Shown: positions 1,092 to 26,668 of the stretch, in pieces
How positions within the stretch are numbered: the stretch's first letter is position 1
Layout: each line of letters opens with the position of its first letter
From: Ceratodon purpureus
Taxonomy: Eukaryota; Streptophyta; Bryopsida; Pseudoditrichales; Ditrichaceae
NCBI GenBank assembly: GCA_014871385.1
Contig: CM026426.1
Location: forward strand, 69,060,674 to 69,124,673
DNA length: 64,000 nt
Direction of reading: 5' to 3'
The notes under the pieces: model-generated
What the model saw: only the letters and a program-made list of their open reading frames with translations
Databases searched by the model: none
Told to the model about the DNA's origin: nothing
Translations under genes and position numbers: made by a program

Positions 1092-1225
1092 CTCATTGAC
1101 GTGGACAGCACAGAGTGAGGCCGATCAGTTGGCCAGTTCATCATTCGGTAGGCGGGCTGCCGACGTTAGTAATCACTAGTATTCAATAAACTATCTAAAG
1201 TGAAAGAAGATGAGAAGGAACTTAC
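1092..1225 (-). other. Intron of the DUF7869-like gene, carrying one hairpin repeat
   Basis: On the minus strand the donor GTAAGT follows an in-phase Ala codon and the acceptor is AATGAG (or the CAG three bases on, at 1089). Both sides are phase 0. Length is 134 or 137 bases. A 17-base hairpin starts 61 bases from the donor. The exon downstream is open for over 1 kb, which supports the splice. Confidence 0.6.
1148..1164. repeat. Hairpin repeat copy (intron)
   Basis: GTAGGC-GGGCT-GCCGAC, one arm mismatch from the GTCGGC-N5-GCCGAC consensus. It lies inside the intron of the DUF7869-like gene. Confidence 0.7.
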
Positions 1226-2299
1226 GGCGTTGGCCATTTCGCGCAGTTCATCGCAGACGGGAGTACTTTGAGCGCGCCCACTCTCTTCATGCCAATCATC
1301 CGAAACTCATTGGGCATTTGGTCCGCATTCTCATTAACGATAGTGGTCAACGTCGCGCGGGCCTGGATTGTGTGAATCTGGGGACGAAGTACTCCGGAAT
1401 TTCCGTGACTCCCATTGACACGGCCACTTCTCGCCGAAGCCTTGTAGTTGTAGTACGCGGATTTTGATACTCCGTGAATAATATACCACGCCACTTAACA
1501 TACGTCAACGTTCGCAAGAGTAACATAGAGCTTCCGCTTGCCGGGTACAATATGTAAGTGCCCTTGCACAGCGAAGGACATCTCTCGCCTCGCCTCGAAG
1601 GTTGTTGCGTAAAATCTACGACGAATACGCACAGTATCTTCCCATCTAAAAGTCTGGCAACATCGGTCCTTGCAACACCGCTTTGAGCTCACTAAGCGGC
1701 ATTCAGCAGGGACAACCATTTGACGAAGCTTAGTAGAGGAGACGTCATCTTTTTCGCGAACTTTCCTCCTCACCGATTGATAGGCATTCTTTGGAACACC
1801 ATCCAGACCATGGTCCGTGTCGGCGTCTGCTAAATTCTTGGAGAAGTAAGTAATTATATCAGAGAGAAGGTGACCCCCTTCTAAGCGAGTGTGAGTCAGA
1901 CGCCATCTGAGAGTTGTCATCTGCAGATGATCGTCTTCAGAGACGAAGAGAACCGCGACCTCTGTATCCCTTAGGACTTCATCATCACATGCCTCGTCCG
2001 GTAAACATACTTGAATCATTGCTCTACCACGGACTGATAGGTCATCATTAAGAAGTTCGACATATCGATTTCTCCAGAGGTGGCGGTCGGGATATGAAGC
2101 ATCTGGAGTGGAAGGAGTACCCGGGGTCCCGGATTCCGGACCACCACTATGATCATCCGTGTTTACATCAAATTCCCCCTGTTCAGACACATCGTCGTCA
2201 CTGCTGATATTTATTGAAGACCTAGTCCCCAGATCCTGCTCAGACGGAGCGGAGTTGCTTTCATCAATTTCTTCATTGTCGTTCCCCAAGTGAGGTTCC

Positions 2300-2316
2300 G
2301 TTGGCGGGCAGCCGAC
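2300..2316. repeat. Hairpin repeat copy (coding)
   Basis: GTTGGC-GGGCA-GCCGAC. It lies in the DUF7869-like reading frame, where it encodes VGCPPT on the minus strand. Confidence 0.75.
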
Positions 2317-2656
2317 GGGACATGTGCCAGCGAACGCGCCGTTCACAATTGAACATACCTTGTATCCACTCTAAAGTACCAATCGCCCCACAACACACCC
2401 AATCGTTAACACATTCGGTAACTCGCAGAAAGCAGGTGTTTCAGAGAATTCAGGATTGACGGACGACACTCTCACTATTAGAAAGAAGCTGTGGGGAATC
2501 AGGAACCCCTCCCACGTTCCTTTAGGAGAGCACTCCAAAATGACTCCAGCGGCAACACAACGCTTTGAACCTCCGGATTCCTCGAGGAGCGCAACTTCCA
2601 TCTGCTCTGCGAGGTCCAGGAATTCTTGAACGGGCTTGACATCTTCTACAACATTC

Positions 2657-2673
2657 GTCGGCGGGCAGCCGAC
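2657..2673. repeat. Hairpin repeat copy (coding), perfect arms
   Basis: GTCGGC-GGGCA-GCCGAC, both six-base arms perfect. It is in the same frame as the copy at 2300 and again encodes VGCPPT. Confidence 0.85.
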
Positions 2674-3009
2674 AACGTTGATGTCATCTTCTTCCACCTC
2701 TTCAAAAGGCCGGAGGTCTGCCGCCTCCCACAATATCATGCGTCCTAAGCAGTCGCTCAAGGACTTCACACCCTCATCCGGAAATGGTATATTCATTTCC
2801 ATGCTGTCTGAAACTTCAATCACTTTTACCATCACCACTATAGGATCAAAGTCTACTACACGTTGGATCACTGCTCTGCCTGCATAATAAAGCCGAGAAT
2901 GAGTAAGGGCCACAATATTGCCCTTTTTAACCTTCCACCGCCCTAATCGGCCATTCCTTAGAAATGTCTGGATCGGCTCTACTTCCATTGGATAGAAGTA
3001 GAAGACCTC

Positions 3010-3026
3010 GTCGGTGGACCGCCGAT
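3010..3026. repeat. Hairpin repeat copy, degenerate
   Basis: GTCGGT-GGACC-GCCGAT. Several half-copies (single CCGCCGA or CGCCAAC arms) lie around it between 3045 and 3170. Confidence 0.5.
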
Positions 3027-3087
3027 AGGATCGATGGGAAGTGTCCCCGCCAACGGAGAGGACTGTATCCGCCGACGACGAAGAAGC

Positions 3088-3104
3088 CTTGGCGGGCAGC
3101 CGAT
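3088..3104. repeat. Hairpin repeat copy (coding, different frame)
   Basis: CTTGGC-GGGCA-GCCGAT. Here the minus-strand frame reads HRLPAK instead of VGCPPT, so the repeat is conserved as DNA and not as a peptide. Confidence 0.65.
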
Positions 3105-3228
3105 GCGGATCGGACAACTCGGAGTGTGCACAAAAATAGTATCCGCCGACAAAGATGGATAGGTCCGCCGATAGTGAATGCAGGAGACCTTTCGTGCAAA
3201 GCAATACGGTGTCTTCTAACCTAACCAA

Positions 3229-3976
3229 TCAGAGACTCCTCTCAACTGTCCAATCAAAAACAATAGACGAAGACAACGGAAACGGCAGCAGAAGGTGCTG
3301 GACAGTTACGCACATACGAGAATAATATCGGTCCTCTCAAGCAACGTGTGCGTGAAAAGCACTCTCAGAGGGAATCGGAAGTGCAATGACAGGAATAGAA
3401 TGAAGCATGCACATCTGACGGGGGCGTTAGTTATGAATTCCCACGAGTACAAATTGGCGCCAGAATCAAATTCAATTTTGCGCGCCTTGAACAGATCAAG
3501 ATCCCATCATGGCAGCGAGATACCTCCGCCGTCACAGAACAATGTTAATTCATTATTACGAATTTGAACGTGGCGATTGGAGCAGCTGTCACATCACTTG
3601 CCCACGCCATCATGACTTGGTGACGGATTCGAAAAAAGTCAAAACACGTCCCATCAACATTCTATGTGGTGTGATGGGATGGATGTTAGGGATGACCATC
3701 CATGCATGGATGGTATGTACATGGCCATACGTCATGACCCATTGGGCGTGACGATTCAGTCTCGGGAGGTGGGGTTCTCAGTATATACACCCGCCACTAC
3801 CGACATTTCCTCCTCATTTCCTGCCTTCTCATTTTCAGCTCTCTTATGTCCTCTTCTCAGCGCTCCGCGGAGGTCGCGTCGGCTACTAGGGTTTAGGACG
3901 TCGGCCCCTTGACCTGCGCGCGTCGGCTGCTGTGCTCGGATCGTCCGCCGACGGTGAAAAGCCATCCGCTGACGAC
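3229..3976. promoter_or_regulatory. Divergent promoter and leader region
   Basis: This spacer separates the leftward DUF7869-like gene from the rightward ParB-like gene. A TATATA box at 3782–3787 in a GC-containing context would place rightward transcription near 3810. CCAATCA boxes occur near 3225 and 3250 on the side of the leftward gene. Short open frames here show no recognisable protein. The right end (3900–3976) already holds degenerate hairpin halves. Confidence 0.45.
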
Positions 3977-3996
3977 ATGGCTGCCTCCGAGACTGG

Positions 3997-4300
3997 GTGA
4001 GTTGTCCTGTCGGCTGTCCGCCGACGCCTCCGCTTCTTGAGTCATTCAAGTTTCTGTTTTTTCATTTGGGTTTGTCCCCCCCGTCGGCTGTCCGCGGACG
4101 CCTCTCCTTGTTGAATTTTTGAAATTTTTTATTTTTTTTTCATTTGGGTTTGTCCCTCCCGTTGGATGTCCGCCGATGGGAAGGGAGTGTCCTTTCCCCT
4201 CGTCGGCTGTCCGGCGATGGGGAGGGAGTGTCCGGCCCGTCGGGTGTCCGCCGATGGAGTGAGACTTTGATGGTCCAATCTTGTGATTGTGATTATGCAG
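3997..4300 (+). repeat. Intron 1 of ParB-like gene with a cluster of five hairpin repeats
   Basis: Donor GTGAGT at 3997 and acceptor TATGCAG at 4300. Hairpins lie at 4009–4025 (perfect GTCGGC-TGTCC-GCCGAC), 4083–4099, 4161–4177, 4202–4218 and 4239–4255, the last four with one to three arm changes. Between them a TTTCATTTGGGTTTGTCC block occurs twice (about 4055 and 4138), so the unit was partly tandem-duplicated. Confidence 0.7.
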
Positions 4301-5696
4301 GGCGATGGTTGACCTAAACGCAAAACCATCTGGGTTACGGTGGCTCTCTGAAAAGGTTGTTGATCTTGAAGGAACAATAATTGCACGGGGCATGAAACCG
4401 AGGGTGACATTCCTCCCTGATTTGAAGATAACGGAGTGGGGCACCACCTGGCGTGACACTCCCATGTCACTAGGATTCGTGACCAAAATAGATCAGAAGC
4501 AAATGCAAGGTGGACCAAGATTTGAGATCATAGGAGGCAAGGAATGCAAGGGGAAGGACAACGTGTGCTTGGTGATTGCAACGGTTCCTGTGGTGGAGGG
4601 GAATCCAGTGGATTGCTTCCCGGTCGTATTTCCGGCTAAGAAGTGCATGGACAACTTGTGCTCCAAGGAAATACAGGAAGCGGCTCCTTGGGGCAGGGGC
4701 GAGAACTCCGGAGACGTTGAACAGATACTCGACGTGATTGATATGCTCGGAGACAAAGTGATGGAAGACAAGAGGAAGAGTGCGGTTAAGCCTTCACCAA
4801 AGAAAAGAGGCGGCCGCAAGACTGCTGCAGAAGCGGGCATTGATACAATCACCCCCGAGACCGGAGAGACACAGGCGACAGAGGAGTCAACGAGAAAGAA
4901 GAAGGGAAAGGCTGCGGCTGCTGAGGGCAAGGGTGGGAGACAGAAGAAAGGTGGGAAGAAGGAAGAGAAAAAGCAGACCTTGGCGGAAGCTCTCATGCTC
5001 GCAAACAATCTCACTTCCAAAACAAAGGACACCGACGTCCTTGCTATGTACCAGACGTTGGAGGAGGGACTTGTGCACTGCTTTCCCTACGGGCAAAAAG
5101 CCATTCCTTCGCAGATTCTTGCTGACAGAATATACATAGCTCTCGACAAATTTAAGTACAGAGCGATATTCAGGAAGAGGCAGGATCAGATAAGTCTTTT
5201 CTACAAAGGACTTGGAGCAATCCGGAAGAAGCCCGAGCTGTATTGCCTTCCTTTGCATGGTGACCCCAGAATAAAGGATGCGGCGACGGGTGAGATTAGG
5301 ATGGCTGGCAAGTAAGCAATTCTTAGTCCTATGCTACCCCTCGGTGCCAAGTTTTCTTACGCACAGGATGACGGCACACGTAAGGAGATACCTTGGTATG
5401 AAGATGAGGCCATCCACTGATACATAATTGGGGGCCAGCACACGTTCGAGGCTTGTCGAGAACTGGGAGAGAAGGAACCACTCGACTCTCCTATGCAGAA
5501 ATATTTCCTCAACCACAATATCATTCCTGTATGGTCTAATGACGAGGATACCCTCATTAAGGTCTCTAACGCATTAAACATCAAGGTGAAGGATAAAGTC
5601 GCCGAAGTAAGTTTTAGGTCCCAGCTGGAGAAGATGCGCGCCAAATGGATTGAGAGGAGGAGGATCGGCAAGAAAGCTGACTTCAACAAATGGAAG

Positions 5697-5830
5697 GTAA
5701 ATCACATCTTCCACTTTTCCTGTTGTTTACATGTAGTTGAAACTCGTTGGCGGCCCGCCGACGCTCAGGTGGTTTTCCGTATTGTAGAAGTGAGATTGAT
5801 TTATCAATTTCATTTTCTTCTTCCTTGCAG
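5697..5830 (+). other. Intron of ParB-like gene with one hairpin repeat at 5746–5762
   Basis: Donor GTAAAT after a Lys codon and acceptor CTTGCAG. Length is 134 bases. The hairpin GTTGGC-GGCCC-GCCGAC starts 49 bases from the donor. Apart from the hairpin it shares no obvious sequence with the intron at 1092–1225, although the length is the same. Confidence 0.65.
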
Positions 5831-5866
5831 GATTTTTGCAAGGAGTACCTCAGTCCGATTCTCGGA

Positions 5867-5875
5867 AAGTCCCCT
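5867..5875 (+). repeat. Left 9-bp target duplication of MULE-1
   Basis: AAGTCCCCT, identical to 20170–20178. It lies inside an exon and encodes KSP in the interrupted frame. Confidence 0.9.
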
Positions 5876-5892
5876 AGAGGGAAGCTTGTACG

Positions 5893-5945
5893 TGAGCGGA
5901 GAGCGCAGAGCGGAGAGCGGTGAGCGCAGATTTGGAGAGCGGAGA
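5893..5945 (+). repeat. Left subterminal GAGCGGAGAGC array of MULE-1
   Basis: About five imperfect copies of GAGCGGAGAGC/GAGCGCAGA lie directly inside the left terminus. The same array is found inverted at 20104–20157 and at both ends of MULE-2. The family is probably defined by these units, which are candidate transposase-binding sites. Confidence 0.75.
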
Positions 5946-6845
5946 GCACAGAACCTTAAAATAACACTTTTTTTACTAAAAATAAATTATAAAATTAGAA
6001 GATTCGAATATTCTTAGTGTATTTTTGGAAAGTTACTAATTTTAGTAATTTAAATGACCCTATAACCGTGGACTAATTACAGTATTTTCATTGAATTTGT
6101 AGTTCATATTCTCTTTTCTTCGTGATTAATTTTTTAACGTGCACCAATTACTATGCTCCAACTCCTTCTAACTAGTTCAGGCATACAGTAATTCCCCTTA
6201 TCTCCTTAAGTTTATATGCAAATTACTACTTAAAATGTATTGGTATTAAACCTCTGAACAGGGGTCAAGTAACATTTAATTTTGTAACATTTTCTTAACA
6301 TTGCTAGAATTCATCCACCATAGTCTACATGCCTTTCTCCTTATTTTTAATTTTTTTTAATTTTTTTTATATTTGTCTTGTATTTTTTATAAAATTTTCT
6401 TTATTCTATCTATCTTGTTAGAGGGGTCAAAAGTCTCCTTTCATTTAATTCTCTCCTTCATTTTATTTTCACAATCATTTTATTTTCACGTTCAATTTGT
6501 TGATCTCCTTCATATTATTTTCAACCTTCATTTTAAATATTGCTATTCTTTTCTTTAATCTTTTTAATTTCAATTTATATGAATGTTTTTTTTTTAAAAT
6601 TTTTTAAATTTTTTTTTTCATTATTTAATTTTAAAAAAAAATTTAAATGCTAAATGACCTCTGCCAAACCTTCATCTTTTTCCATTCGCTTTAGGAGGAT
6701 GACAACTTCTAAATGAATGAATAGTCGATTTTCAAGGGCGCCAAGCATCTTCTTCAGGGATATTTAAGATAAGAGTAGGAAATGTCTCTGCCTCTTTTGT
6801 GTTGGTGTTATGTGAAGCTCTTTTCCGTAGTGCGGGACAGCAGCT
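5946..6845. other. AT-rich subterminal region of MULE-1, no gene
   Basis: Very AT-rich with many T-runs. It aligns by eye with 34440–34930 of MULE-2, for example around TGGACTAATTACAGTATTTT. No coding signal is seen. Confidence 0.6.
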
Positions 6846-7298
6846 ATGGAAGACGTCAGAGATATTGTTGTTTCACTTGCTGACGATGTTTCTCCATTTC
6901 AACCATATGTTGAGATGGAGGACGAAGAAGACGTGATGGCCAGCAGCCAAGGGCGTCCTTCGACAACGGATGTTGACGTCCAACCGGATGTAAGAGCTGA
7001 CCCTCCACGTTCAGAAAATTCGGATGAAATCATAGTGCTAGAGAAGGACGCAGATGTGCCTTTGCAACCACATGCATACTCGAAGGTTGGAAAGATCCCA
7101 AGGGGAACCTATTCCAGGGAATCAGTTAATCGGAGGCGGGGAGGTGGGCCATTGCTGAAACGTTCATACCAAGGACACGCTCCAAGTGTGGGAACGAAAG
7201 TGAATGCGAATGTAGTTTGTCCTGTAGTACAGTCAGCGGCTGGCAGTCCTGCTGATAGTGTAGTGGGCAACCCTAAACCTGTTAGGTTTGAAGATTGA
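6846..7298 (+). CDS. Small acidic ORF of MULE-1, unrecognised
   Basis: A 150-codon frame starts at ATG 6846. The N-terminal half is acidic (EMEDEEDV, ENSDEIIVLEKD); a short basic patch (NRRRGGG) lies near residue 100. No domain is recognised. It reads toward the 3' end of the transposase gene, and an AATAAAAG polyadenylation-like signal lies about 30 bases after the stop. It could be a second element protein in the position of mudrB, but I see no similarity to that protein, and a chance frame cannot be excluded. Confidence 0.35.
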   Translation: MEDVRDIVVSLADDVSPFQPYVEMEDEEDVMASSQGRPSTTDVDVQPDVRADPPRSENSDEIIVLEKDADVPLQPHAYSKVGKIPRGTYSRESVNRRRGGGPLLKRSYQGHAPSVGTKVNANVVCPVVQSAAGSPADSVVGNPKPVRFED

Positions 7299-7552
7299 GA
7301 TATCTAATAACAAGTATATGTTTGCTGTAATAAAAGATACATGTCACGGGATACGAAGTATATAGTGCACTTGTTCAAGATAGAATGTTTTCAAATAGAG
7401 TGCAATCAATGAGAACGACAAAGCCTTTAATATAATGAAAAAGTCAATACAGCTTCTGAATAGCTGACTTAGTACATGGTATATTACTAAAATCATTCAC
7501 TACGTGACAAATGGCCATTGTGGAAATGGCAGTTCTAAAGTAGGAGGGCTAC

Positions 7553-10500
7553 CTACTTCTTTGCCAAGGGGTGACGCAAGATTCCACTCTCTAAGAGTAG
7601 CTTGACCTCGTTGAAGCTGAAGGTAGGCGCATGGATGAAAAGCTCGGCTTCGGGATCACGGTTGCAGACCTTCAAGAGTATGTAGTATAGGTGCTTACAA
7701 TACGTGAACTGAGTCTTGCCACGGAACGTAGTCATCGTCTTCTTGAATGCTGGGCAAGTGCAACCAGGGTAAGAACTGATGGTAATCTGGTACCGCGTGA
7801 TGTGTGGAGCGACGCCCAAATCCAGCCCAATGATGCAACCGTGGCCCGGCTCAGGTATCATGGTGACGGAACGGAGGCGTGCTTTAAGAGATTCGGAGGA
7901 GCCCATGGAGAGTCGCTGCGCTTGATTGGGACGAGTGGCAGTGCGCTTCACCATCTTGCCGTCTCTCTTGCCTGGGTAGCGGTCAGCGTCTGCAGGGACT
8001 GGCACTGAGCTGAGATTTGCCGGGGGCGGGGCAGAGGAGAAGAGGCGTCTTGGGGAGACCGGTTTCTTCGGCGGAAGTTGAAAGCCCGCTGCTTCGAGGG
8101 CAAGAATCTGAGTAAGTTTTAGGTTAGTACCTAGTTTCACTGGCCAGACCTCTGGAATGGAGGGGAATTCTTGGTCCTTTGAGTAGTGTGCTACCCACTT
8201 GCGCTTAGAGCCTTTCACGCAGCGCTCAATATCGTCGGAGCAGAAGAAGAACTCAGTCTTCTCGACTAGGTTCCTGCGATAGTTAGTCCAGAGCCCAGTG
8301 TAGGTCGGTGCAGCTGTGCAATGGGGCCCCCTGACGATTCTCTCAGTGCACTTCTTCTTCGTTTCAGCTCTTTGGGCCCAGCAGCACTTCGCAGAAAGTT
8401 TGTGAAGTCTCGAGATGTGCCACTCCTTCACGTCCACCTTGGTTTCTTCAACCGCGTTGACATGGCGAATGCCGCCCTTGTTCGCAGGTGAAGGTAAAGG
8501 GGAATCAACTTCCTCGGCAGGAGGTTGGGTACATTGTACCTCGGTGTCGTGTTCGGAGTCGTCTTCCACAATGACGGGCATCTGCATAGAGCGAGCCCTG
8601 ACGGCACGTCTTGGGCCTCTTGGGCGTGAGAAGTTTGTCTTATCCGGGCGATGAGACTCCTCGTCAACTCCGATAAGGACATCGGCTTTTCGCTTCTGTG
8701 AACCGAAGACTTCCACTCCAGGCATGATAGGCTGACGGGTGCAGAACTCATCCGCGCCTGGCATATCGAGCATGGGCTTGTCGAGCAGTGTAGGATTTCC
8801 CCATTTCTTCGCGTTGCGTTCAGCCATCCGGAGCCTGAGTTCCTTCTTGGATGGTCCTGTTCCGCCGACGTCACCTTTGAGGAACAAGTAGTAGTTGACA
8901 ACCTGTAGAAATGCACGAACGAAATCGTCCACGGTAGCAACATACAGGTCGTTCCCGTTGTTTTCTAAAGCTTGGAGCCACTTGTTGTGAACTGTTTCGG
9001 CGAGGTTACAGGTCGGCATCTCTGTGAGTTCTTCTTTCGTGAATTTCTGCAGTTTAGACAGTAGGAGCCGTTAGATTCAACGATTAGAGTTTTGTTGGTT
9101 AGGGCTAGGAGACCAGTATCAAAAACATGAAAACAGAGTGCAGAGATAATAGCTCGGTCATGATTCCCCCCCACTGGCGGAAGCGGTGGTGCCAGAATGA
9201 GAGCCACTGATCGAGTTTGATGAGTCCGCTCTCGCCAACGACCCCGGTGGATGCCCACCATGCTCGCAACGCGTGGTACAAAGTTTCCGCCTCTGCCATG
9301 TTGGTCGCATTCTTGTACTGAGTGCACATCTTCTTGTGCTGTTCCCAGAGTTCTTCGGGGAAGTGCTTCTGCGTATACGCCACCATGTTCTGTGTCCAGT
9401 GGAACAAGCACGACCTCTCCCGTTCCTCCATTGGGTCCTCTTTGTTGCCATTGCCGTAAAGGATTCGCACTGCATTCCAATTCGCCTATGCGTTATCCGC
9501 CATGAACCCCTTGAAGTTCGGCGTTGCAACGCCATTGATCTCCATGACCAGGTTCAGGTTTTTCCTGAAGACGAGCTGGGCGTCCGTGTCCTCGGACTGC
9601 ATGTCGCAAGTGGCGATTGTCATCACGCGGCAGTAGGTGGCGTCGTACACATGGCACGCCATCGTCGACCACTCTTTCACGCGTTTTACATGGTCGAACA
9701 TGATCCATGCGTTCTCCAAGTCGCCACCAGCTTGCATTCGGCTGACCAAGTCGACACCACTTCCCGGCCCGACCTCCGACATCTTGAAGACGAAGACTTT
9801 GTCACGCATAGATCCCTGACCAGGAAACTTATTCTCCTGGACATACGCCCAGAGACTGTTACCACGGAGCTTGGTGATACCGTCCATGATTCCGTACCTT
9901 TTGAATTTTTTGAAGGTGGCGACTTTGTTGCGGATGTTTGGTGACGCCATGTCTTTGCATCGATCCAGAACAGGAACCAGCTCCTCCATCGTCAGCTTCC
10001 TCGGTGGTGCATCCTCGGGCTGTAGCAGATAGCTCCCGATGAGGAGTTTGCTCGCCTCCAAGACAACGGCGCTCTTTGTTGCTTTGTTGTTCATCTCTAC
10101 CTGCTCTTCTATTAAGCTACTAATTTCTGCTTTAGAGTCTCTATAGTCTCCTACTTTCACGGGATGATCATGTGTTCCTATGTGAATACAAGCTCTAGTC
10201 TGATTTGGTTTGCCCACAACGTAATAAATCTTAGCCTCGCATGTAGCTACACATGATGGAGGTTCTTTACATACCTTGCACACTAGCGTGGAGTCAGATG
10301 GAGGAGGCTGGTCCATGACAAAAGCTTGCAGGGTACAGCCTTCGAACTCAGTCTCGTTAACCTCGAAGATCTTGGGAACACGCTTCAGGAAGTCACACTC
10401 CTTGTTGTTGCAGCGCAGCCATCCGACGCAGGTGGAACTTCGAAAAGAGAGTCCGAAGTCGTTTTTGATGTTTGTTGTGATGGTCTTGGTCCACAAGTGT

Positions 10501-11229: not shown

Positions 11230-11334
11230 ATTCGCAGGCAACACAGAGATACTAGCGGAACAAGGGAGAAGAGTGAGGGTACTAGCGAAGCAGTATCGCG
11301 AGAGCAAAGTGAGAGGAGTGATGCATCGCTGTTG

Positions 11335-17800: not shown

Positions 17801-18518
17801 TGAGATGATGGAGAGCATAATTGGAGAGCTCTCGAAGCCCGGCGACATAGTCCTCGATTGGAAGGCAGGAACAGGTAACCGTTCTTACATGTCTCTACAG
17901 AATTATTTCTCTGATTCCTTCCTCAGTTTCTCACGTCTTCACCTTGCTTTGAGTTGCAGGGGCCTCTGTCAAGGCTTGCCAGGCTATTGGTCGTCATATT
18001 ATAGCTTTTGAGGATGACGAAGCCATATTCAACGCCCTTCTCAAACCGTATATGGCAGCAAAATCTCCCATGGGCCCCCGTAAACATCCTAGACCGGCAG
18101 CAGCAGAGGAAGCACCAGCAAAGAAACAAAGACCCACTAAGTATTGTAAGTCTTACTCTAAAATTTGTATGTTTCGTGCAATGCATCTAGTATTATTTCT
18201 GTATGAAAATTTACCTATTCGATCTAACCACTTCTGGCTTTCTATTGCAGAGTAGTTGTGACAACACCGCCAAGTGGGCATAGAGCCGTGTTCACTCCAT
18301 CGTGGCGTCTTAATTCCAGCCCGGTTCAGCCTTTTATTCTTCCGGACTATGCAGAGGGCTTAGCACAAGCGCTTCAATGTGGTGCACTTAGATATGTTCC
18401 TAGTCGGCCCACTAATTTTGATCTTAGGGCCCTTCTATTTGTCGATGAAGAGGCTGTAGAAGGAGAGTCTGAGTCATCGGGTTCTGAGAGTGGAAGTAGC
18501 GACTGTAGCATCTTCTAA
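11832..18518 (+). CDS. ParB-like + DNA-methyltransferase-like fusion, MULE-1 cargo gene, about 14 exons
   Basis: Exons read by eye: 11832–12272, 12453–12944, 13768–13827, 13954–14358 (possibly alternative), 14502–15091, 15186–15381, 15477–15674, 15759–15974, 16070–16311, 16414–17080, 17166–17519, 17604–17874, 17960–18145, 18253–18518; GT–AG borders and phases fit, except that exon 4 shows no donor. The N-terminus is basic then acidic. Exon 5 holds the ParB/Srx-like motif WEGNHRLAAW (about 14940). The middle is helical. Exon 11 holds DLIIVDIPENLP, in the place of methyltransferase motif IV (DPPY/SPPY). Exons 12–13 hold DIVLDWKAGTGASV, in the place of motif I (DPFAGSGT). Motif IV before motif I is the permuted beta-class order of N4-cytosine/N6-adenine enzymes. 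The same ParB-then-methyltransferase fusion is known in bacteria and phages. Odd: in-frame TAG 12051, TGA 13993, TGA 15286. The altered motif IV makes catalysis doubtful. Confidence 0.65.
13089..13601 (+). repeat. Three tandem 171-bp units encoding a 57-residue repeat
   Basis: Units 13089–13259, 13260–13430 and 13431–13601 are nearly identical, with the third slightly more diverged. Being a multiple of three they keep one frame open, reading EEWG..GGHDGMWGF and AAAQELAAAASWSHL per unit. They lie between the donor at 12945 and the acceptor at 13767, so they are either in an intron or in an alternative exon of the cargo gene that reads through to a stop at 13650. The two other frames on both strands are also partly open because the unit is GC-rich. 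Confidence 0.85.
13954..14361 (+). other. Exon with RNA-polymerase-II CTD-like heptads
   Basis: The acceptor TTCTCTAG precedes VFSDAPLS. The exon then shows three exact Y-[ME]-P-T-S-P-x heptads (about 14108–14170), SPPSPSSP, and an Arg-rich RRFWKRRRHWNC end before TAG 14359. Serine 2 of the CTD consensus is replaced by Met or Glu, while Tyr1, Pro3, Thr4, Ser5 and Pro6 are kept. The same exon with the same end occurs in MULE-2 (39370–39804). No donor is visible before the stop in either copy. The flanking exons join in phase without it, so it may be an alternative last exon. Confidence 0.6.
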
Positions 18519-19027
18519 GTTTGAAAGAGGCCTCGCTCTATCATTGTTTCCATTTGATTTGATTTGATTTCAGTGGAGTTGATTACATACTGCATCGTCT
18601 ACTCTATTGCAAACCACTAAAATATTCATGATTCTCATTTCCAGTTTATACTCGTGTATGTAAAGGTCTAAAATTGCAAGTCTTCTACGACATGACTTAT
18701 GAATAATGAAATGTTACAAAAGAAATGCTCAAATTTTAGATTGCGCTGTAATTTATATTTTAATCATTCAAAATCCCACATTTCCATAGCCATGTTACCT
18801 ATTCTTGACTTGGTGTACATCTTGGTTTCTGCCACTCCATTATTGTACACGAACTCTGAAATATTCCACTAACTTTTAAGACCATTTCGTTTAGTTGTTT
18901 CGAGTTGTCTTATTCCTAGAATCGTCTATATTATCTAAAGCCATCATGCTGGAATACTCGTATCTAGATCCAATAAGGGACCAAGTCTAAAGGATTGTAT
19001 TCGAACACCCCACTAGACTTCACAGTA
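18519..19027. other. 3' region of cargo gene, no gene seen
   Basis: AT-rich. A TTGATTTGATTTGATT run lies just after the stop. Near 18800–18860 a block including TACATCTTGGTTTC recurs at 19698 (altered) and in MULE-2 at 41069, so this is conserved right-side MULE sequence. No coding signal. Confidence 0.5.
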
Positions 19028-19411
19028 CTAATCCTTTGGAGGATATACAGTCCAACTCTTGTCGATATCAAACCAGCAAGTTTTGCCATCCGATATGATC
19101 ACTTCGGGCAGCTGAACAACTGGATTCTCATCGACGTTTGATAGCAAGGGATACGGGATTAGAGACAATTCCATAATACGGAGAAGCTCATTGGTACAAA
19201 GCACTGTCCAACGCCATTCACCTTCACCAACATGGAGGCTTCCGATGTGCCTAAACGGTGGCAGGTCCATGCCTCGGTCTCTGGCGCGCTCCACCTCCAA
19301 TAGCCACGGCCGCAGCTCCTCATAACTCGCCGGTGCCTTTGGGGGCAAACCTACAGCCGCTCTCGTCCTCCTCGATCTTGCATTACACACCTTCGGCATC
19401 GCGCAACACAC
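19028..19411 (-). CDS. Small leftward ORF of MULE-1, unrecognised
   Basis: 127 codons, with no domain recognised. The C-terminal part reads as a compact fold (EVIISDGKTCWFDIDKSW). The start codon at 19411 is not ATG, so an upstream exon or a decayed start is likely. It lies between the end of the cargo gene and the right terminus. MULE-2 has a different leftward frame in the corresponding place (40402–40944). May be a fragment of a captured gene. Confidence 0.3.
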   Translation of the reverse strand: MCCAMPKVCNARSRRTRAAVGLPPKAPASYEELRPWLLEVERARDRGMDLPPFRHIGSLHVGEGEWRWTVLCTNELLRIMELSLIPYPLLSNVDENPVVQLPEVIISDGKTCWFDIDKSWTVYPPKD

Positions 19412-20103
19412 TAAGTTGTTGTAGTCTTAAAACGTTCCACGCAAGCCTACAGATTGACCCCCCCGAACTCCATCGCTACCTTCGCATACAACACAGAATG
19501 CCAAGGACTGTGTCACTATCCTAATACGCCACCTAGAAACAAGCTATAGAAACCAAGAGTGACCTCCTTCTCTGGAACCCAGCTTACCAAGTGCTGTTTG
19601 ATGATGAAAATCTCCTACTTGTATCACTCAAATGAAGATGCTTTGCTGCCTAGGAAGAGAGAGTAATCTTCGATGAAGACAAGGACTCTGACAAGGTATA
19701 TCTTGGTTTCAGCAGTTAAGATATTATACACGAATTTTGAAATATTCGAGGAAGTTTTCAAACCTTGCCTCCTTTATGTTCTGTGAAAGTTGTTTTTTTC
19801 CTTGTGCATTTACATAATCCTATGAAAGAATTATTTGTTTGATCTAAAACTTAACGCCTGATCATTGTATCTTGCCTAAACCCATGACAAATCTCATGGA
19901 ATGTATGCATGACGTCATCATGACATCAGCCCTAATTTGTATCTTAGAGATCAAACGTAATAAATTTTTACCAGAGATAACCCTGATCTCCACGGTAATA
20001 TACTCCTTTCCTAAAAAAAGTGTCAAAATCAAGCCTTAATTTAGTAAATTTCCACGGTTATAGGGTCTACTTTGCTTTTGAAAATTTTGCTAATTGTCAA
20101 TTT
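19412..20103. other. Right subterminal region of MULE-1, no gene
   Basis: AT-rich non-coding sequence shared in patches with 41090–41460 of MULE-2, for example TGACATCATCATGACATC-like and TCCACGGTTATAGGGTCTAC blocks. Nothing else is seen. Confidence 0.55.
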
Positions 20104-20169
20104 TGTGCTCTCCATTCTGTGCTTTGCGCTCTCCGCTCTACGCTCTCCGCTCACATACGAACTTTCCCC
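20104..20169 (-). repeat. Right subterminal array and terminus of MULE-1
   Basis: Inverted counterpart of 5876–5945, with repeated GCTCTCCGCTC units ending in TCACATACGAACTTTCCCC. Confidence 0.8.
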
Positions 20170-20178
20170 AAGTCCCCT
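20170..20178 (+). repeat. Right 9-bp target duplication of MULE-1
   Basis: AAGTCCCCT, identical to 5867–5875. Confidence 0.9.
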
Positions 20179-21466
20179 GTTGCTCAAACCATGAAGCTGC
20201 CCTTAGTCAATGTGTCTTACGAAGCATACAACGAGTGGCAACTGGTCTTCAACGCCTGGGTAGGAGGGGAGGATCATTGGAGAGGACTGTTGAAAACTAG
20301 GATTTCCCCCAAAGCCAGCCCGCCGGGACATAACGTTGAACGACATGCAGTGGGTGATTGGTCTTCGAGACCACGAATGCAAGAGGCTGGCTAAGGAAAT
20401 TCTGGACCTCAAAGTATACATCAAGGTCACTGGGAAAGAGGTGGTTCAACGGGATGGAACATCACTGCAGAATTGGTGTCAGCAGGTGAAATACGAGTAT
20501 ATTGTCAGAAACGAGCTCATGTCCATTTATAGGGGCTTTGCACTCAAGAAACCAGGGAATGCGATGTAAATTGAGTTGAGCTTGGATGGCTGGAATTCCC
20601 TTCAAGTCGAGAAGGGGATCAGCGACTCCATGGTCAGTAATATTCGGGCTGACTTGGAAGATAGTCCTGAGGGGAAGGAGTGGCTTAAGGGACGAAATCA
20701 TCCGCTCACGCCGTCGCACGGAGCAACACTCGATTTATTCAAGGACATTGTGCAGAAGTATTGGAAGTCGGATGTGGACCAGTCTTCGCAGTCGTCTGTA
20801 CAATTCGATGCCCGAATTGCAGAGGACCTAGATGAAGTGTGCAGAATTCTTGACGTTCGCGGAGCTTTCTCCTTCAACAAGGCGCAGTATGAGATGTTTG
20901 TAGTCTTTGGTTACGATACAGCGGAGAAGGAGATGCCGAACATGCGACAAAGAGACATTTTAAGCGTCGCTGAGAGGATTCACCCTGAGGTAGAGGAGCA
21001 GGTCTTTCAGGTCGGTGGGGAGGGAGAAACAACTAAGGTGAATAAGCTTGTCACCCCATCCTTGTGGCTACTCGATGCTGAGTCCAATTACAATCTTCAA
21101 GGCCTGTCAAGGCTGACAGGTAGTTCGTGGACGGTGCATACTATGCAATACTTCCCCGATAGTTCCACTGGGTTTCAAAGGAGTTCTCTCATTGACTCTA
21201 GGCCCAATGTTCATGTGTCCATTATGTATCCAAAGCCAACAACGCCCGGGGATGCATGGAATACCTTCTCGGACTTCACTGGTTTGAAACGGCCGCTTCC
21301 TCCCTATGTGGACGAAGGAGAAGACGGTTTTGGGGAGGATTGGTCTAATGGAGACAGCCACGCTAGTTACTCTTACCTCTAGTCTCTTCTGGAGAAAGCG
21401 ATGCAGTTAAACGACGTTCGGGTGATCAATTGCTGGGGAGGTGGGAACGTCACGGCCCTCGCTTTG

Positions 21467-21603
21467 GTAAGTCACTGCTACAGTCTCTTTTAGTGCCTTC
21501 GCTGTATGCTCACCTATCGTCGGCGGGCAGCTGACGCACATTGCATCCTTTGTGTTTCTTGAGTACAACATTTCCTTAACCGTTTTGTCTTGTTCTTCTG
21601 CAG
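21467..21603 (+). other. Intron with one hairpin repeat at 21519–21535
   Basis: Donor GTAAGT, acceptor TTCTGCAG, length 137 bases. The hairpin GTCGGC-GGGCA-GCTGAC starts 52 bases from the donor, nearly the same offset as in the intron at 5697–5830. Confidence 0.7.
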
Positions 21604-22798
21604 AAAAACCATTTGACTGTAATTGAGATCGTGCATACCGAGGAAGAGAGATTCCAAGCGCACTGTAGGGTTCGGAATATGATGTTCATTCCAGGCATTT
21701 ATAACGTGCCCCTCTAAGCTCCAGTTCAGAACACGCAGTCTGGGGCCGGGCCGTCTGTCCCCGCCTCTGCTAGAGCCAGGAATGGCACTCTCACGCCTGC
21801 CGACTTCGGTGTAAATGTAGAGGAGGCCCATTTGGTCGAGAAGGGTGGATGTATCGGTTTGGGAAAGACTGCGGGGGTTCCGTCACAGAATTTTTTGGAC
21901 TCCGACGACGACGACAAGGAGCCACCAGATGTACCCAATCCAGACGTTGAAGGTGAAATTTGCCTTCGAAGTGGAGATCCTGAGGAACAGGAAAGATACG
22001 ACGACGACCAAGCTGAAGCTCGCATTCCAAGTGGAGATGCAGAGGTAGAGGACAGATACAAGGAGGACGTAGACTATGAACCAGAACCCGACGAGGTACC
22101 GCTGGAAGATTCAAATCCTCGCTACGTAAACCCACCGCTGTCGCAAGTTGCAGGGGAGCAAGGAACTGACTCCCTCGGCTTCGGTAATAAATCTCCTACA
22201 ATACATGAGCAGGAGACTCCTCCCGCCAAGCCACTACTTGACCTAGACCAGGTAGGGCCTCCAAAAAAGATGCAGGTTGCTCTAGCATTGAGGCCTGACC
22301 AAGAACTGGTTGTCCGTGTCGCACCAACCCAGGAGCCTGCAGTGAGCATTGAAGGGCATCTTCCTCCTGCTGCCGTCTTTGGGCCGCCGACGGCAGACAA
22401 GCAAACCTCATCTAACCCCACTGCCAAGTCCAAGGGGACAGTGAAGTCAATTGCATTTGTCACTCAGGGTGTGAAGGGCGCAACTCGGATGATTGGCCCA
22501 GATGAGAACCCTCAGGGCAAGACACGAGCAGCAAAGAGAAGTAAGACCGATGGTAGTGCTCAGGCTTCCTCTCTTGTGGGTAACGTATCCCGCGATTCCT
22601 CAGGGGTTTAGGAAGGGGAAGAGTCATCAGGGAAGGGCAAACGGAAGGCTGCTTATAAAAAGACTTCCTTCAAGAAGGGCACATCTGGGGAACAGCACAT
22701 GAGTCCAAAAAATGTGGACGCTCCAAAGGATGTTCTGTCACCTCCGCGGGCATCCAGGAAGGCGCCTAGGCCAAAGAAGTTCAAAGGTGAAGGTCAGT

Positions 22799-23034
22799 AA
22801 ATCAGGCGGTGGCCCAGTCCATCTTTTAAATGCCTGCATTGATAAGTTAGTGTAGTGTTCCGGCGCTAGGATTGTGTTAGATGTTTGTACTGCCAAATAT
22901 GAATAAATTATCGGTAAATGCCAAGTTGTAGGCTCTCCCTTTCTCCAAATAATGTTGCTTGGATGTCGGCTGTCCGCTGACCATCGTCCTAACCGTCACG
23001 TTTGTCTTCTGCTTTGTTTGCTATCACTCCAGAG
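22799..23034. other. 3' end region / possible intron with hairpin at 22965–22981
   Basis: Holds an ATGAATAAATT polyadenylation-like site near 22900, then hairpin GTCGGC-TGTCC-GCTGAC. A CACTCCAG acceptor at 23034 opens the next FCP1-like exon. Whether this is a gene boundary or an intron is unresolved. Confidence 0.4.
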
Positions 23035-23801
23035 TTCGCGGACAAGGAAGTCCAAGGAAAACTTCGCGAAGACAGATCCAGTGCAGTCTGGAGCAGGGAC
23101 CTCCACCTCTGACTGCAGTTCACATAGCCCCGGAACATGCTAGTATTGAGGTACACGATCCAATGTTGAAGTACTTTCTGGTCCTTGATATTAACCGCCT
23201 TTCATTAGTCCAGACGAAGGTGGGCACTCAGTGGAATACTAGAATTAGACTGGGTTTAGTTCAGTTCCTAGAGTTCTGCCTGGACAATTTTGAGGTGGTC
23301 TTCTGGAGCTGCGTTGAGGAAAAGAGATTCGGATTACTGTGGAAAGTGTTGCAGCAGCGCTGTCCTCGTCTAGATGCTGAAGTGCGCTACAAGTTCGACC
23401 AGAGTTTCTGCGAGACTTGCATACATAAGGCTGGTAGGGAGTTTTATTTGAAGAGACTCTAGACCCTCTTCGACCTCGATGACGGGCTGAAGGGGACGGG
23501 GGCGTCTTCAATTAACACTCTCTTGGTTGTTGATTCCCCTTATAAGAATGTCGCAAACACTCCTTGGAACGCTGTGCACCCTACAACATATACCTTAAAG
23601 TCGAAGGAGTCGGAAAATAAGAGGAATTATCTGGTGGGAGAGTTGATTCCTTGGCTTACAAGTTTGAAAGAATCCAAACTCCCCGTGCCCGAGTACTGCC
23701 AGAAACACTCCGAATTTGGTCACAGTCGTCTGTTTCCGGGGGATGAAGCTTATAGTCTCTTCTCTCCACACATTGATTGCCCTAAACGAAAGAGAACATA
23801 G
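23035..23801 (+). pseudogene. FCP1/NLI-interacting-factor-like domain, copy 1
   Basis: HAD-fold domain of the FCP1/SCP type, whose active members dephosphorylate the RNA polymerase II CTD. Seen: YFLVLDINRL (motif I place; DxDx is DIN here), then R-L-G-L-VQFLEFCLDNFEVVFWS (the conserved RPG…FLE…FEV.VWS block), and near 23520 TLLVVDSPYKNV (the LLxDDSPyKn block, first Asp changed to Val). It ends basic (PKRKRT) at 23801. One in-frame TAG at 23460. Plant NIF-like proteins commonly have DIN/G at motif I, so loss of the second Asp is a family trait and not decay. An AATAAAG signal follows near 23890. It lies downstream of the ParB-like gene and may have been its continuation. Confidence 0.7.
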
Positions 23802-23841
23802 GAGAAGTAGAAATTGTTTTAGAGAACATGCACATGATTCA

Positions 23842-23858
23842 GTCGGTTGCCCGTCGAT
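23842..23858. repeat. Hairpin repeat copy, degenerate
   Basis: GTCGGT-TGCCC-GTCGAT, in the 3' region between FCP1-like copies 1 and 2. Confidence 0.5.
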
Positions 23859-24058
23859 GGGATCTTCATGTATTTAGAACTATACAGTAAATAAAGTTTT
23901 CCTCCTTTTAAGTATATGAGAACAGAACTCAGTGTCGAGACTGTGTATTCTGTCGTGAGTGTCTTATTGTTTCTCCTACTGTACACCAGAGTATGTATGA
24001 ACTGTGAGCACGTAATTGACCGCCGCTGTTTACTTGGAATTTGTCCTTCACTGTTCAG

Positions 24059-24898
24059 GAGTCACTGGAGGATGATGCCGGAGTTGAAGTGCACCAGGGA
24101 CCTTCCCTTTTAAGTACGCTCTTGGAGCACTACCCAATATCTCCTAATGGTGATGCTCACAAAGAAGAGTCTCCGGGAGCGGAAGCCGAGAATGAATGTG
24201 ATGGAAAGGACGAGTACGACTATCCAGTCGGCGGGCCGCCGACGCTGTCTGCTGCACATAGCTCCGGCCGGTGTGCTATGGCTTCCACCTTGTTTGTTGA
24301 GACCAACGTTGGGATCCCGCGCACCGATTCCCCGCGCGATGATTCCGTCAGTGTCAGCACTGGTATTATCGCGCGTAATATTGAGGTACCTCTCCTACGA
24401 TACTACCTTGTCCTTGACATTAAGGGATCGCCCATCGCGGAGCACCACGGGTATATCGGTGATGACCTGAAGACAAAAATTCATATCCGGGCTAGACCTG
24501 GACTTCTTTCATTTCTAGAGTTCTGCACGGCAAATTTCGAGGTAGTCTTTTGGTCCACTGTTTCTGAAAAGAATCTCGATCGTCACTACCAGAAGCTGTT
24601 AGCCATTCATCCTTTGCTGAGGAGCAATTACAGACGCCTTCGAGGATACAGGTGTGATATCTCGACAAGAAATAATCCTAATGAAAAACGGGAGTACTTG
24701 TTGAAGCGCTTGGATAGACTTTTCTGCGACACTAGGCTAATGGCTCAATAAGGCGCCAGTGTCCAGAATACCCTACTGGTAGACGACCGGCCTTATAGGA
24801 ATGTACTTACTCATCCATTTAGCGTTGTCCATCCTAATTCTTTCTTCTGGGACTCTGCAGAGTCCAAAGGACCTCAATCCACCCCAATCCCTATTTAA
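24059..24898 (+). pseudogene. FCP1/NLI-interacting-factor-like domain, copy 2
   Basis: The exon opens after acceptor TGTTCAG with an acidic lead. The fold markers are YYLVLDIKGSP (motif I place, second Asp lost), RARPGLLSFLEFCTANFEVVFWS (about 24490–24560, the most canonical of the three), KREYLLKRLDRLF and TLLVDDRPYRNVL (about 24770), which keeps the Asp-Asp pair. TAA at 24749–24751 breaks the frame once; it ends at 24898. A perfect hairpin repeat (24227–24243) lies inside the coding lead and encodes VGGPPT. Roughly 40% similar to copy 1 by eye over the core, so the duplication is old. Confidence 0.7.
24227..24243. repeat. Hairpin repeat copy (coding), perfect arms
   Basis: GTCGGC-GGGCC-GCCGAC, inside the lead of FCP1-like copy 2. 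Confidence 0.85.
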
Positions 24899-25461
24899 CT
24901 AGGGTAGTTTCACCATTCCTTGCAGGACTTAAGCAGTGTGGATTGGATGTCCAGGAGTATGTAGGAAGAATTCTAGCGTGGGGAAGCCACGTCTTTTTCC
25001 AGAATCTCGCAAATACCAGAAGTATAGGGAGATTATTCCTTCTCATGCATGCGGGTTTGACGTCCCGGGTAATCCTGGATCTTGGTTTGTGAATTTACCT
25101 TGTCCTCCTGAGGCCCCTGGTAGTTCCATCGTCGGCGGTTCCCCGACTGATTAGAGCCTATACCAGTGGCGCTAGTCTTTTATAAACACATATGATACTC
25201 TACACTCTTTAGTTAAATACGCTAAGACTGTTCCCTTTCTGAACTTCCCTGCACCACACATTTGTTTCCAGTGCTGCAATTCGGTACTTCTTTTTGTAGA
25301 TGCATGCATGACATTTCACTTGCTGCACATTTACCTTTGACGTTTCTTCAATGCATCGATTTATCGGCGCGTCGCCAAGGACTTTGAATATAGTCCATTT
25401 TTTCCATATACTTCCTTCTGTTCTTTGATTTCCTTCACTGATTGCACTTCATATTCTTCAG
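24899..25461. other. Spacer with decayed coding, hairpin at 25131–25147
   Basis: From 24925 to 25155 a frame reads like the C-terminal tail of the FCP1-like family but is broken. Hairpin GTCGGC-GGTTC-CCCGAC lies at 25131. From 25155 to 25460 the sequence is T-rich and intron-like, ending in acceptor TTCTTCAG. Confidence 0.4.
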
Positions 25462-26118
25462 GGTACCTCGTTTTATTTCAAATGCCTTCACGGTCCACCC
25501 CATCATGTCAATAAATGTATTGTCCTAGGCGTCAATGGCCTTCTCTGCTATGTGGATCCCAGGACAGAGGCTTTGCCATGGGATACGCATCGGAATGTAG
25601 TGAAGCGCCCAGGTTTGAAGAAGCTTTTCGACATGATTTCCTTGCATTTCCATGTTGGTCTCTGGTCGAAGATGCCCTTGGGAGAACTGAAGCCTTTATT
25701 CACACATATTCTGCCGGCCGGTGTAATGGAGAGGCTGTCCTTTGTGTATAGCAAAAGTGACCTTATCGACCGGGAGAATTTCCCCTGGAGTTATAAGACG
25801 TTAGGTCAAGTTTGCTCCAAGGTACAGTCTCATAACGTCTGCAAACTAGATCAGGTGCTATTTGTGGATGTTGACCCGAGGTCATTGAGGAAGACACCAA
25901 ACTGTATGTACTACATTCCTTGGCCTTTTCAGGGTCATCTAAACTTTCCGAACGATGACGGCGTTATACCTAACATTGCTACAGATATCCTTCCTCTCGT
26001 ATATCCCTTGCACAAGTTCGGATCTGTACCGGAGTATATGGCGCAGGTGTGTAGGCCGGGGCAAGTGCACTGGGCAATTCAAGCTGCGAGAAGGTTTGGA
26101 CGTGCACGAGTGGACTAG
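25462..26118 (+). CDS. FCP1/NLI-interacting-factor-like domain, copy 3
   Basis: Open frame from the acceptor at 25461 to TAG 26116, 218 codons without interruption. KCIVLGVNGLLCYVDP stands at motif I, with both catalytic Asp lost (G-V-N). It continues with VKRPGLKKLFDMI…FHVGLWSK, the FCP1 block. DQVLFVDVDPRSLRK stands at the later Asp motif, and a C-terminal block ends in LPLVYPLHKFGS. The VNGLL form resembles the plant NIF-like family (DINGLL). It is the only unbroken coding copy of the three, but the first nucleophile Asp is gone, so it could only be a binding domain. It probably needs upstream exons; no ATG suits. Confidence 0.65.
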   Translation, partial: GTSFYFKCLHGPPHHVNKCIVLGVNGLLCYVDPRTEALPWDTHRNVVKRPGLKKLFDMISLHFHVGLWSKMPLGELKPLFTHILPAGVMERLSFVYSKSDLIDRENFPWSYKTLGQVCSKVQSHNVCKLDQVLFVDVDPRSLRKTPNCMYYIPWPFQGHLNFPNDDGVIPNIATDILPLVYPLHKFGSVPEYMAQVCRPGQVHWAIQAARRFGRARVD

Positions 26119-26205
26119 AGTGAAGTTTGCTAGGATTGAGTTCAGCGGACTTTTTCGCCTACAACTTGCACTTCCTCCCTCCTGCGGACCAACACAACAC
26201 CTTCC

Positions 26206-26222
26206 ATCGGCTGCCCGCCGAC
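26206..26222. repeat. Hairpin repeat copy
   Basis: ATCGGC-TGCCC-GCCGAC, just after FCP1-like copy 3. Confidence 0.75.
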
Positions 26223-26426
26223 TTGGTCGATCCGTTTGTGCAGCCTTCAAATATATGATTTACTCATTAACCTTATGGCTATGCTTTCAGGGAAATAGTT
26301 CCCCGAGTAGGTTATAATGTGATAGGATTTATGTCAACTTGGTACATAGTGGTGGTAGTAGACTTAATGTTGTAGGACTTAATGACTCAAACTGCTACGG
26401 GACTAGTTAGTTTAGTGTGTTCTATT

Positions 26427-26443
26427 ATCGGCGGGACGCCGAC
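26427..26443. repeat. Hairpin repeat copy
   Basis: ATCGGC-GGGAC-GCCGAC, non-coding. Confidence 0.75.
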
Positions 26444-26651
26444 TCTGTATTGTACATTTCAATACTTGAATCAACATGATATTCTTTAAAGTATTCATTG
26501 TAACTCTTATTCTGCATCATATGTCGCAATCTTCGGACTCATATATCCATCACTGGCAAATTCCGCCCATGTTCATATCGATGTCCACTTTTGCATTCCA
26601 TATTGTCTGGTATTCATGTACTCTGACAGTGTTCATCCGTGGTCTCCATCC

Positions 26652-26668
26652 ATCGGCGGTCCGCTGAG
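26652..26668. repeat. Last hairpin repeat copy
   Basis: ATCGGC-GGTCC-GCTGAG. No further copy is seen to the right; base composition changes to AT-rich immediately after. Confidence 0.6.

Follow-up and report, generated by a model that had tools for sequence, protein, structure and literature searches.

The palindrome GTCGGC-N5-GCCGAC, 17 bp long, marks a family of large DNA transposons in the moss Ceratodon purpureus. The stretch analysed here, called the window, is 64,000 bases long (C6:69060674-69124673 of a host assembly of 362,488,568 bases; C6, of 110,524,308 bases, is taken to be a sex chromosome). One copy of the transposon, about 15.7 kb in size, runs past the left edge of the window, and a 14.3-kb insert interrupts it. 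The existence of the motif is confirmed, and it is a property of this one mobile element. On balance, sequence patterns and analogy with known transposons favour the explanation that it is the recognition site of a putative DNA-binding protein encoded by the element, whose effect would be to counteract silencing.

With up to two mismatches allowed, the window holds 15 sites, whereas 100 dinucleotide shuffles gave 0.72 on average and never more than 3. All 15 lie within 1148-5762 or 21519-26443, and none lies inside the insert (5876-20169) or to the right of 26729. The original prediction had described a locus marked by at least 17 copies of the motif, which were absent from later insertions. 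The two stretches do hold the sites and the insertions lack them at this threshold. The copy at 21519, which had been set apart, actually lies inside the same element to the right of the insert, and the locus as a whole is a single transposon, a point that had gone unrecognized. At exactly three mismatches there are 20 further matches in the window, nine within the element (some mutually overlapping) and 11 outside it, four of these in the insert. Because such matches are spread outside the element and into the insert, three mismatches give little more than chance would. Of the nine, five (3088, 4161, 22375, 23842, 25363) coincide with motif positions of other copies.

The exact motif occurs at 2858 places in the 362-Mb host genome, and a reversed control at 3. 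The original prediction had called for such a count and allowed that the motif might prove equally common elsewhere; it is not. Assignment to elements covers the first 50 of the 2858 places (the first 5.73 Mb of contig C1), and all 50 fall inside the family: 14, 18 and 17 in the full copies E1, E2 and E3, and one in a miniature inverted-repeat transposable element (MITE). At 30 loci from a search with the first 600 bases of E1, sites with at most one mismatch number 111 inside the element and 0 in 45,000 bases of flank (30 of 30 loci). As a separate observation, the single hexamers GTCGGC and GCCGAC occur 23 times in the window outside the element, compared with 9.3 expected and a maximum of 16 in 50 shuffles.

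Full-length comparisons use E1, E2, E3 and the window copy. No strand is assigned to the insert, the motif sites or the half-sites below.

E1: C1:1251698-1267319, full copy
E2: C1, about 4083214-4098961, full copy
E3: C1, about 5718254-5734015, reverse strand, full copy
Window copy: 1..26729, minus strand (reverse of E1-E3), starting at C6:69057423, 3.25 kb left of the window; delimited by blastn, ends and duplication
Terminal inverted repeat of the window copy: 26705..26729, minus strand; the target duplication, TTAT on the plus strand, comes next
MULE-1 insert: 5876..20169, 14.3 kb, inside gene 2, with a 9-bp duplication AAGTCCCCT; no motif with up to two mismatches. The label MULE (Mutator-like element) comes from the original prediction and this duplication

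The copies are 15.6-15.8 kb long, as is the window copy once the insert is removed. Along its length, E1 is about 97% identical to E2 and E3 and about 88-91% identical to the window copy (blastn). The inverted ends read AAGGG(A/G)TATTTA(G/A)GTAATT(C/A)TGGACAAAA, slightly altered in the window copy, and 4-bp target duplications flank all four full copies (TTAT, ATAA, ACAT, and ATAA for the window copy). When the first 600 bases of E1 were used as a query, 260 candidates were found, and the 40 that were scored were 99-100% identical. Gene 2 of the element is open across 531-539 codons in many of 84 scored copies. The near-identical copies and the open gene thus suggest that the family is young and probably recently active.

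Sites with up to two mismatches number 29 in E1, 30 in E2, 30 in E3 and 22 in the window copy; the expectation for E2 is 0.37, with a maximum of 3 in 100 shuffles. The element carries a gene with a DUF7869 domain, a second gene (gene 2) divergent from it, and phosphatase-like regions beyond gene 2. The sites occupy spacers, the gap between the divergent genes, coding exons, and all three placeable introns of the window (1148, 5746 and 21519). In the window they are found as follows.

1148..1164: one mismatch; intron between two DUF7869 exons; read-through peptides of relatives fit the 17-mer with one mismatch there
2300..2316: one mismatch; coding, VGCPPT; orthologous site
2657..2673: exact; coding, VGCPPT; orthologous site
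3010..3026: two mismatches; just upstream of the DUF7869 start codon; orthologous site
4009..4255: motif cluster at 4009 (exact), 4083, 4161, 4202 and 4239; leader region of gene 2; in E1-E3 these are 73-77-bp tandem units that vary in number
5746..5762: one mismatch; gene 2 intron; exact in 12 of 12 other fetched copies
21519..21535: one mismatch; second gene 2 intron
22965..22981: one mismatch; near the start of the first phosphatase-like open reading frame (ORF)
24227..24243: exact; coding, VGGPPT
25131..25147: one mismatch
26206..26222: one mismatch; near the right end; kept in E1-E3
26427..26443: one mismatch; right-most site with up to two mismatches; kept in E1-E3

Outside tandem arrays, the four copies have the same site positions, with one loss. 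Extra sites ride on tandem repeats with unit lengths of about 73-77 and 100 bp, whose number differs among E1, E2 and E3. The original prediction had placed the coding copies in different reading frames, but the four sites that could be placed in coding exons of E2 share one frame and all read V-G-x-x-P-T. In the 100-bp array, about 14.8-15.1 kb from the start of E1-E3, the motif stands within a longer palindrome. In the window copy, the corresponding longer palindrome, CCTA-GTCGGC...GCCGAC-TAGG, falls outside the window.

The five bases between the arms are far from free. They fit KGNCM in 2484 of the 2858 places, compared with about 1/64 if free and equal. In 2079 of these 2484, positions 7 and 11 hold bases that do not pair, T/C or G/A (1017 and 1062). 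A constrained centre with non-pairing positions is evidence against a hairpin and favours recognition by a pair of protein subunits. In E2, the combinations at positions 7 and 11 are TC 11, GA 10, TA 5, GC 3 and CC 1. Between E2 and the window copy, swaps of T with G or of A with C at these positions affect 8 of 52 cells, compared with 286 of 15006 in the background; between E1 and the window copy they affect 5 of 54 cells, with two further changes of T to A. These pairwise cell counts cover 27 of 32 aligned sites (five tandem-array sites are left out) and gap-free cells. Such swaps may be the trace of a protein pair that tolerates G or T at one position in each half.

A second arrangement of the same sequence is found between the divergent genes, where, from its position, the spacer would hold their promoters.

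Half-site array: 3878..3952, with GTCGGC at 3878, 3900 and 3922 (22 bp apart) and GCCGAC at 3947; spacer between the divergent genes

Runs of half-sites spaced 22 bp apart comprise 4, 4, 4 and 3 members in E1, E2, E3 and the window copy, and none of 300 shuffles of E2 gave a run longer than 2. Half-sites outside palindromes number 14, 13, 12 and 9 in the same copies; in 100 shuffles the averages are 5.4, 5.5, 5.2 and 4.5 and the highest counts 12, 14, 13 and 10. The excess in number is thus suggestive only, and the arrangement is the stronger observation.

In young copies, the inner arm bases are nearly invariant, while the outermost base on either side differs at 6-7 of 29-30 sites, almost always with the change on a single side. 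In one gene 2 intron, that of window site 5746, the motif is exact in 12 of 12 copies that are 90-97% identical to E1, and arm cells depart from the majority in 0 of 144 cases, compared with 66 of 1403 elsewhere in the intron; these 12 were hand-picked from 84 scored of 532 candidates to include diverged copies, and their kinship means that the cells are not independent. Changed cells at CpG positions in sites number 15 of 184 between E1 and the window copy (208 of 1448 outside sites) and 4 of 176 between E1 and E2 (36 of 1460 outside). The original prediction had proposed selection on DNA or RNA structure. Selection does seem to act on DNA, not on protein, but the hairpin that it had in mind is unsupported, given the constrained centre and the non-pairing positions.

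Protein searches yielded 278 relatives for the DUF7869 exon and 44 for the first exon of gene 2. The peptide tests used 164 proteins of these 322 matches (the best 120 of the 278, and 44 of 44). Predicted proteins of relatives often read through into introns, so that intron sequence can be seen in translation. Among 216 segments outside reference exons (4726 residues), seven stretches are encodable exactly by the 17-mer GTCGGCKGNCMGCCGAC, compared with a shuffle mean of 0.01. With up to one mismatch there are 22, compared with a mean of 0.56 and a maximum of 3. By comparison, 49,661 exon-aligned residues contain one exact fit and six at up to one mismatch. The contrast fades at two mismatches, where the segments give 55 fits, shuffles 5.7 and exons 62. 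A large share of the proteins are near-copies of one another, and P0121, one of the seven exact cases, shares 87% identity with E2 and could stem from the same species or a close one.

RRSAD stretches occur at two places: the intron with window site 1148, and an intron missing from Ceratodon copies. CRRSAD fits the 17-mer exactly, and YRRSAD and YRRTAD fit it with one mismatch. That relatives' peptides fit the same 17-mer speaks against a change of the motif between families. A 14-bp form of the motif in relatives (GTCGGNNNNCCGAC) was considered and withdrawn, since the preceding residue makes RRSAD-type peptides fit the 17-mer itself. At the intron of window site 5746, P0127 and P0160 (35% identical over the matched part) read IGCPPM and IGCQPI, with at least two mismatches. 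In the first DUF7869 exon, a relative that is 46% identical reads IGGPPI (two mismatches) where Ceratodon copies read VGCPPT, and has a second IGGPPI about 20-25 alignment columns from the other coding site. In relatives of the P0003 type there is an apparent intron after VMRYK of the DUF7869 exon, missing in Ceratodon, whose read-through CRRSAD is an exact 17-mer; this intron and its motif may have come or gone together.

In the favoured explanation, two subunits would read the palindrome GTCGGCKG-N-CMGCCGAC as double-stranded DNA, and the same protein would read the phased single half-sites between the divergent genes. With sites along its full length, every copy of the family could be coated by the protein, and hardly anything else would be. 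The most likely effect would be that the chromatin of the element is kept active, through anti-silencing and activation of both divergent genes, much as VANC proteins act for VANDAL elements. Non-coding MITEs would keep the site because they, too, would need this protein to be supplied in trans. Observed are the motif itself, its location within the family at the listed places, the fixed positions and the constraint of its sites, its occurrence in MITEs and the phasing of half-sites. We infer all three parts of the proposal: the binding of a protein, its origin in the element and the anti-silencing outcome.

Several results weigh against this explanation. The 2858 places are copies of about thirty sites and a MITE, and are not independent events. 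When E2 is compared with the window copy, two of the ten changes at positions 7 and 11 are T to A and thus fall outside the allowed class. Arm changes between E1 and the window copy (30 of 324) match the background (1401 of 14996), so the old window copy shows no arm protection. In relatives, the motif is read from translated introns and not from DNA. Gene 2 has no Pfam domain, and for neither of two protein models did a fold search give a solved structure with an E value of 0.001 or lower. Finally, the single exact site of the MITE fits recruitment of a transposase at least as well as coating.

The MITE is central to the main rival, transposase assembly. In this model, the DUF7869 protein or a partner binds the sites to join the ends and cut, and internal copies are surplus or regulatory. 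En/Spm (CACTA) elements, with their repeated subterminal sites for the TnpA protein, provide the precedent. The MITE is 383 bp long (L014:4499-4881), has the element's ends and a GTAT duplication, and is the one listed motif place outside full copies; no ORF of at least 100 codons overlaps it. Of 21 copies examined (from 40 scored of 366 candidates), 18 carry an exact motif at a distance of 57 bp from one end, and 17 have perfect 4-bp duplications. Near the other end, 47 bp inside, is a degenerate site whose position is fixed. Cells depart from the majority in 4 of 357 cases within the motif, compared with 128 of 5048 in the inner part. Beyond its ends and the motif, the MITE has little in common with the element, which suggests that the motif works in cis, at the DNA level. 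Variation is higher at two CpG sites located away from the motif (5 of 42 and 9 of 42 cells) than in the motif itself, and a third, one base before the motif, varies in 1 of 42.

The retained ends, the exact site and the degenerate site of the MITE, with little else in common with the element, speak for transposase assembly, as do the outermost sites of full elements, which lie about 289 bp inside one end and about 234 bp inside the other. However, full elements carry about 30 sites over their entire length, including introns and coding sequence, as well as phased half-sites, and the pairing of ends requires neither. Whole-element spread and phasing favour regulation. Assembly is possible but the less probable of the two; the functions are compatible, and both can be true.

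A different proposal is that the element borrows stress activation from its host. The half-site GCCGAC is the DRE/CRT core bound by DREB/CBF factors, and phased half-sites between divergent genes would suit such a role. This is unlikely. The site is a 17-bp palindrome with a constrained centre; lone half-sites exceed means of 4.5-5.5 but stay near the shuffle maxima; and sites persist in introns, in coding sequence and in a MITE with no genes.

A hairpin in RNA, for instance in splicing, or a cruciform in DNA, is less probable again. Each of the three placeable window introns does hold one site, and one two-sided change was noticed, at E2 site 8141, where the outer pair is altered on both sides to A-T. 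The copies at 2657, 4009 and 24227 had also been described as having covarying or perfect arms, but all three turn out to be perfect. The non-pairing bases at positions 7 and 11 are not those of a hairpin, and sites also occur in spacers, coding exons and the gene-less MITE. A hairpin or RNA function was rejected on the centre statistics.

Least probable of all is the suggestion, also made by the original prediction, of a tiny mobile or copied 17-mer spreading within the element. In its favour, tandem arrays vary in number, and site 1353 of E1 survives in decayed form in the window copy and is cleanly gone (19 bp) from E2 and E3. However, given the intact site of E1 and its remnant in the older window copy, the simplest account of this sole motif-sized difference is that E2 and E3 lost it. 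Other positions are fixed in the four copies, on which ground the idea was rejected, and the arrays vary in steps of about 73-77 and 100 bp, not of a 17-mer.

The nearest known parallels include the VANDAL elements with their VANC proteins. VANDALs are MULEs, with a duplication of about 9 bp and a MULE transposase. The moss element is not a VANDAL, because it has 4-bp duplications and a DUF7869 gene; a scan of ten window ORFs and three E2 proteins found no MULE domain. In two reports on Arabidopsis, a short motif is repeated in one VANDAL family, often in copy-variable tandem repeats and in non-coding DNA, and the unrelated element AT9TSD1 likewise has VANC6 motifs in non-coding DNA (PMC5735166, PMC10398659). 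VANC21 is described there as reading YAGTATTAY, and the VANC6 motifs are given as AGTTGTCC/AGTTGTAC (PMC5735166, PMC10398659). The moss element is alike in that a short motif is repeated in one transposon family (50 of 50 listed places, out of 2858) and in that motif-bearing tandem repeats (73-77-bp and 100-bp units) vary among copies. It differs in its 17-bp palindrome, which neither the VANC21 nor the VANC6 motif is. It also differs in that the motif stands in coding sequence too and seems conserved in relatives rather than fast-changing.

A broader claim can be held only tentatively, at somewhat less than even chances. Self-recognition may have evolved independently in an unclassified giant DUF7869 transposon of mosses. 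One protein of the element would read a dyad that carpets the whole element, coding exons included, together with phased half-sites, and would thereby allow copies and MITEs to stay active and mobile. VANC sites change fast; the moss site, by contrast, would be unchanged across families with only about 65% protein identity (from exact and one-mismatch peptides), perhaps even 35% (from two-mismatch peptides). How a transposon escapes silencing without activating all else is an open question, and sequence-specific self-recognition is documented for VANDAL. If the claim is true, a second and unrelated case in a moss would mean that self-tagging evolves repeatedly. The compact palindrome, the MITE as a natural minimal substrate and the many near-identical copies would then form a clean test system.

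Two other groups of transposons deserve comparison. Sola transposons have 4-bp target duplications and variable inverted ends, are in some cases larger than 15 kb, and are reported from Physcomitrella patens (PMC10741241). The moss element resembles them in duplication length, size and host group. The same source describes CACTA transposons as large plant elements (PMC10741241), and the moss element resembles these in being a large plant element with repeated, here putative, protein-binding sites. It differs in that its ends begin AAGGG, with no CACTA/CACTG ends, in that it makes 4-bp and not 3-bp duplications, and in that its sites run along the whole element rather than only at the ends. Literature searches on moss or giant transposons, on transposons of the Ceratodon sex chromosome and on palindromic dispersed repeats gave, among the titles listed, none naming this element. 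A search on both hexamers with the word transposon gave bacterial matches only and left the element unnamed, and one on CACTA subterminal sites found nothing.

The genes of the window copy are arranged as follows.

DUF7869 exon, presumably transposase-like: 3..1124, continuing left of the window, minus strand; PF25273, E 6.6e-45
DUF7869 gene, first exon: 1225..2990, minus strand; several ORFs here (decayed), open in E2
Gene 2, first coding exon: 4305..5696, plus strand; no domain known; reading frame decayed in the window copy but open in many others
Gene 2, coding part right of the insert: 20170..21468, plus strand; from ORFs and comparison with E2
NIF/HAD phosphatase-like ORF regions, three: 22953-23798, 24020-24748 and 25429-26115, plus strand; PF03031

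The DUF7869 match scores above the curated cut-off (153.5 bits for PF25273, with a cut-off of 26). A literature search found nothing connecting DUF7869 with transposons, and the protein had no sequence relative among solved structures and no relative in viral or prokaryote collections. The two protein models are weak, with mean pLDDT of 63.4 and, for DUF7869, 51.6. The DUF7869 model (L009:5698-7731, plus strand) gave weak fold matches to small barrels (MazF-like, and the SAWADEE domain of SHH1) at E 0.025 and worse; with this best E value and low model confidence, no fold assignment was adopted. For gene 2, a ParB-like domain, prompted by the stretch GGQHT, was considered and dropped, with no backing from Pfam, from solved structures by sequence or from fold search.

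Contigs of 66338, 149496, 217137 and 536529 bases appear in the lists of relatives of both genes, which suggests that the two genes may travel together. Of the phosphatase-like regions, the second and third score above the curated cut-off of PF03031 and the first below it, and the E2 protein matches at E 9.2e-10. Three such regions lie one after another (window 22953-26115) as cargo in a DNA transposon.

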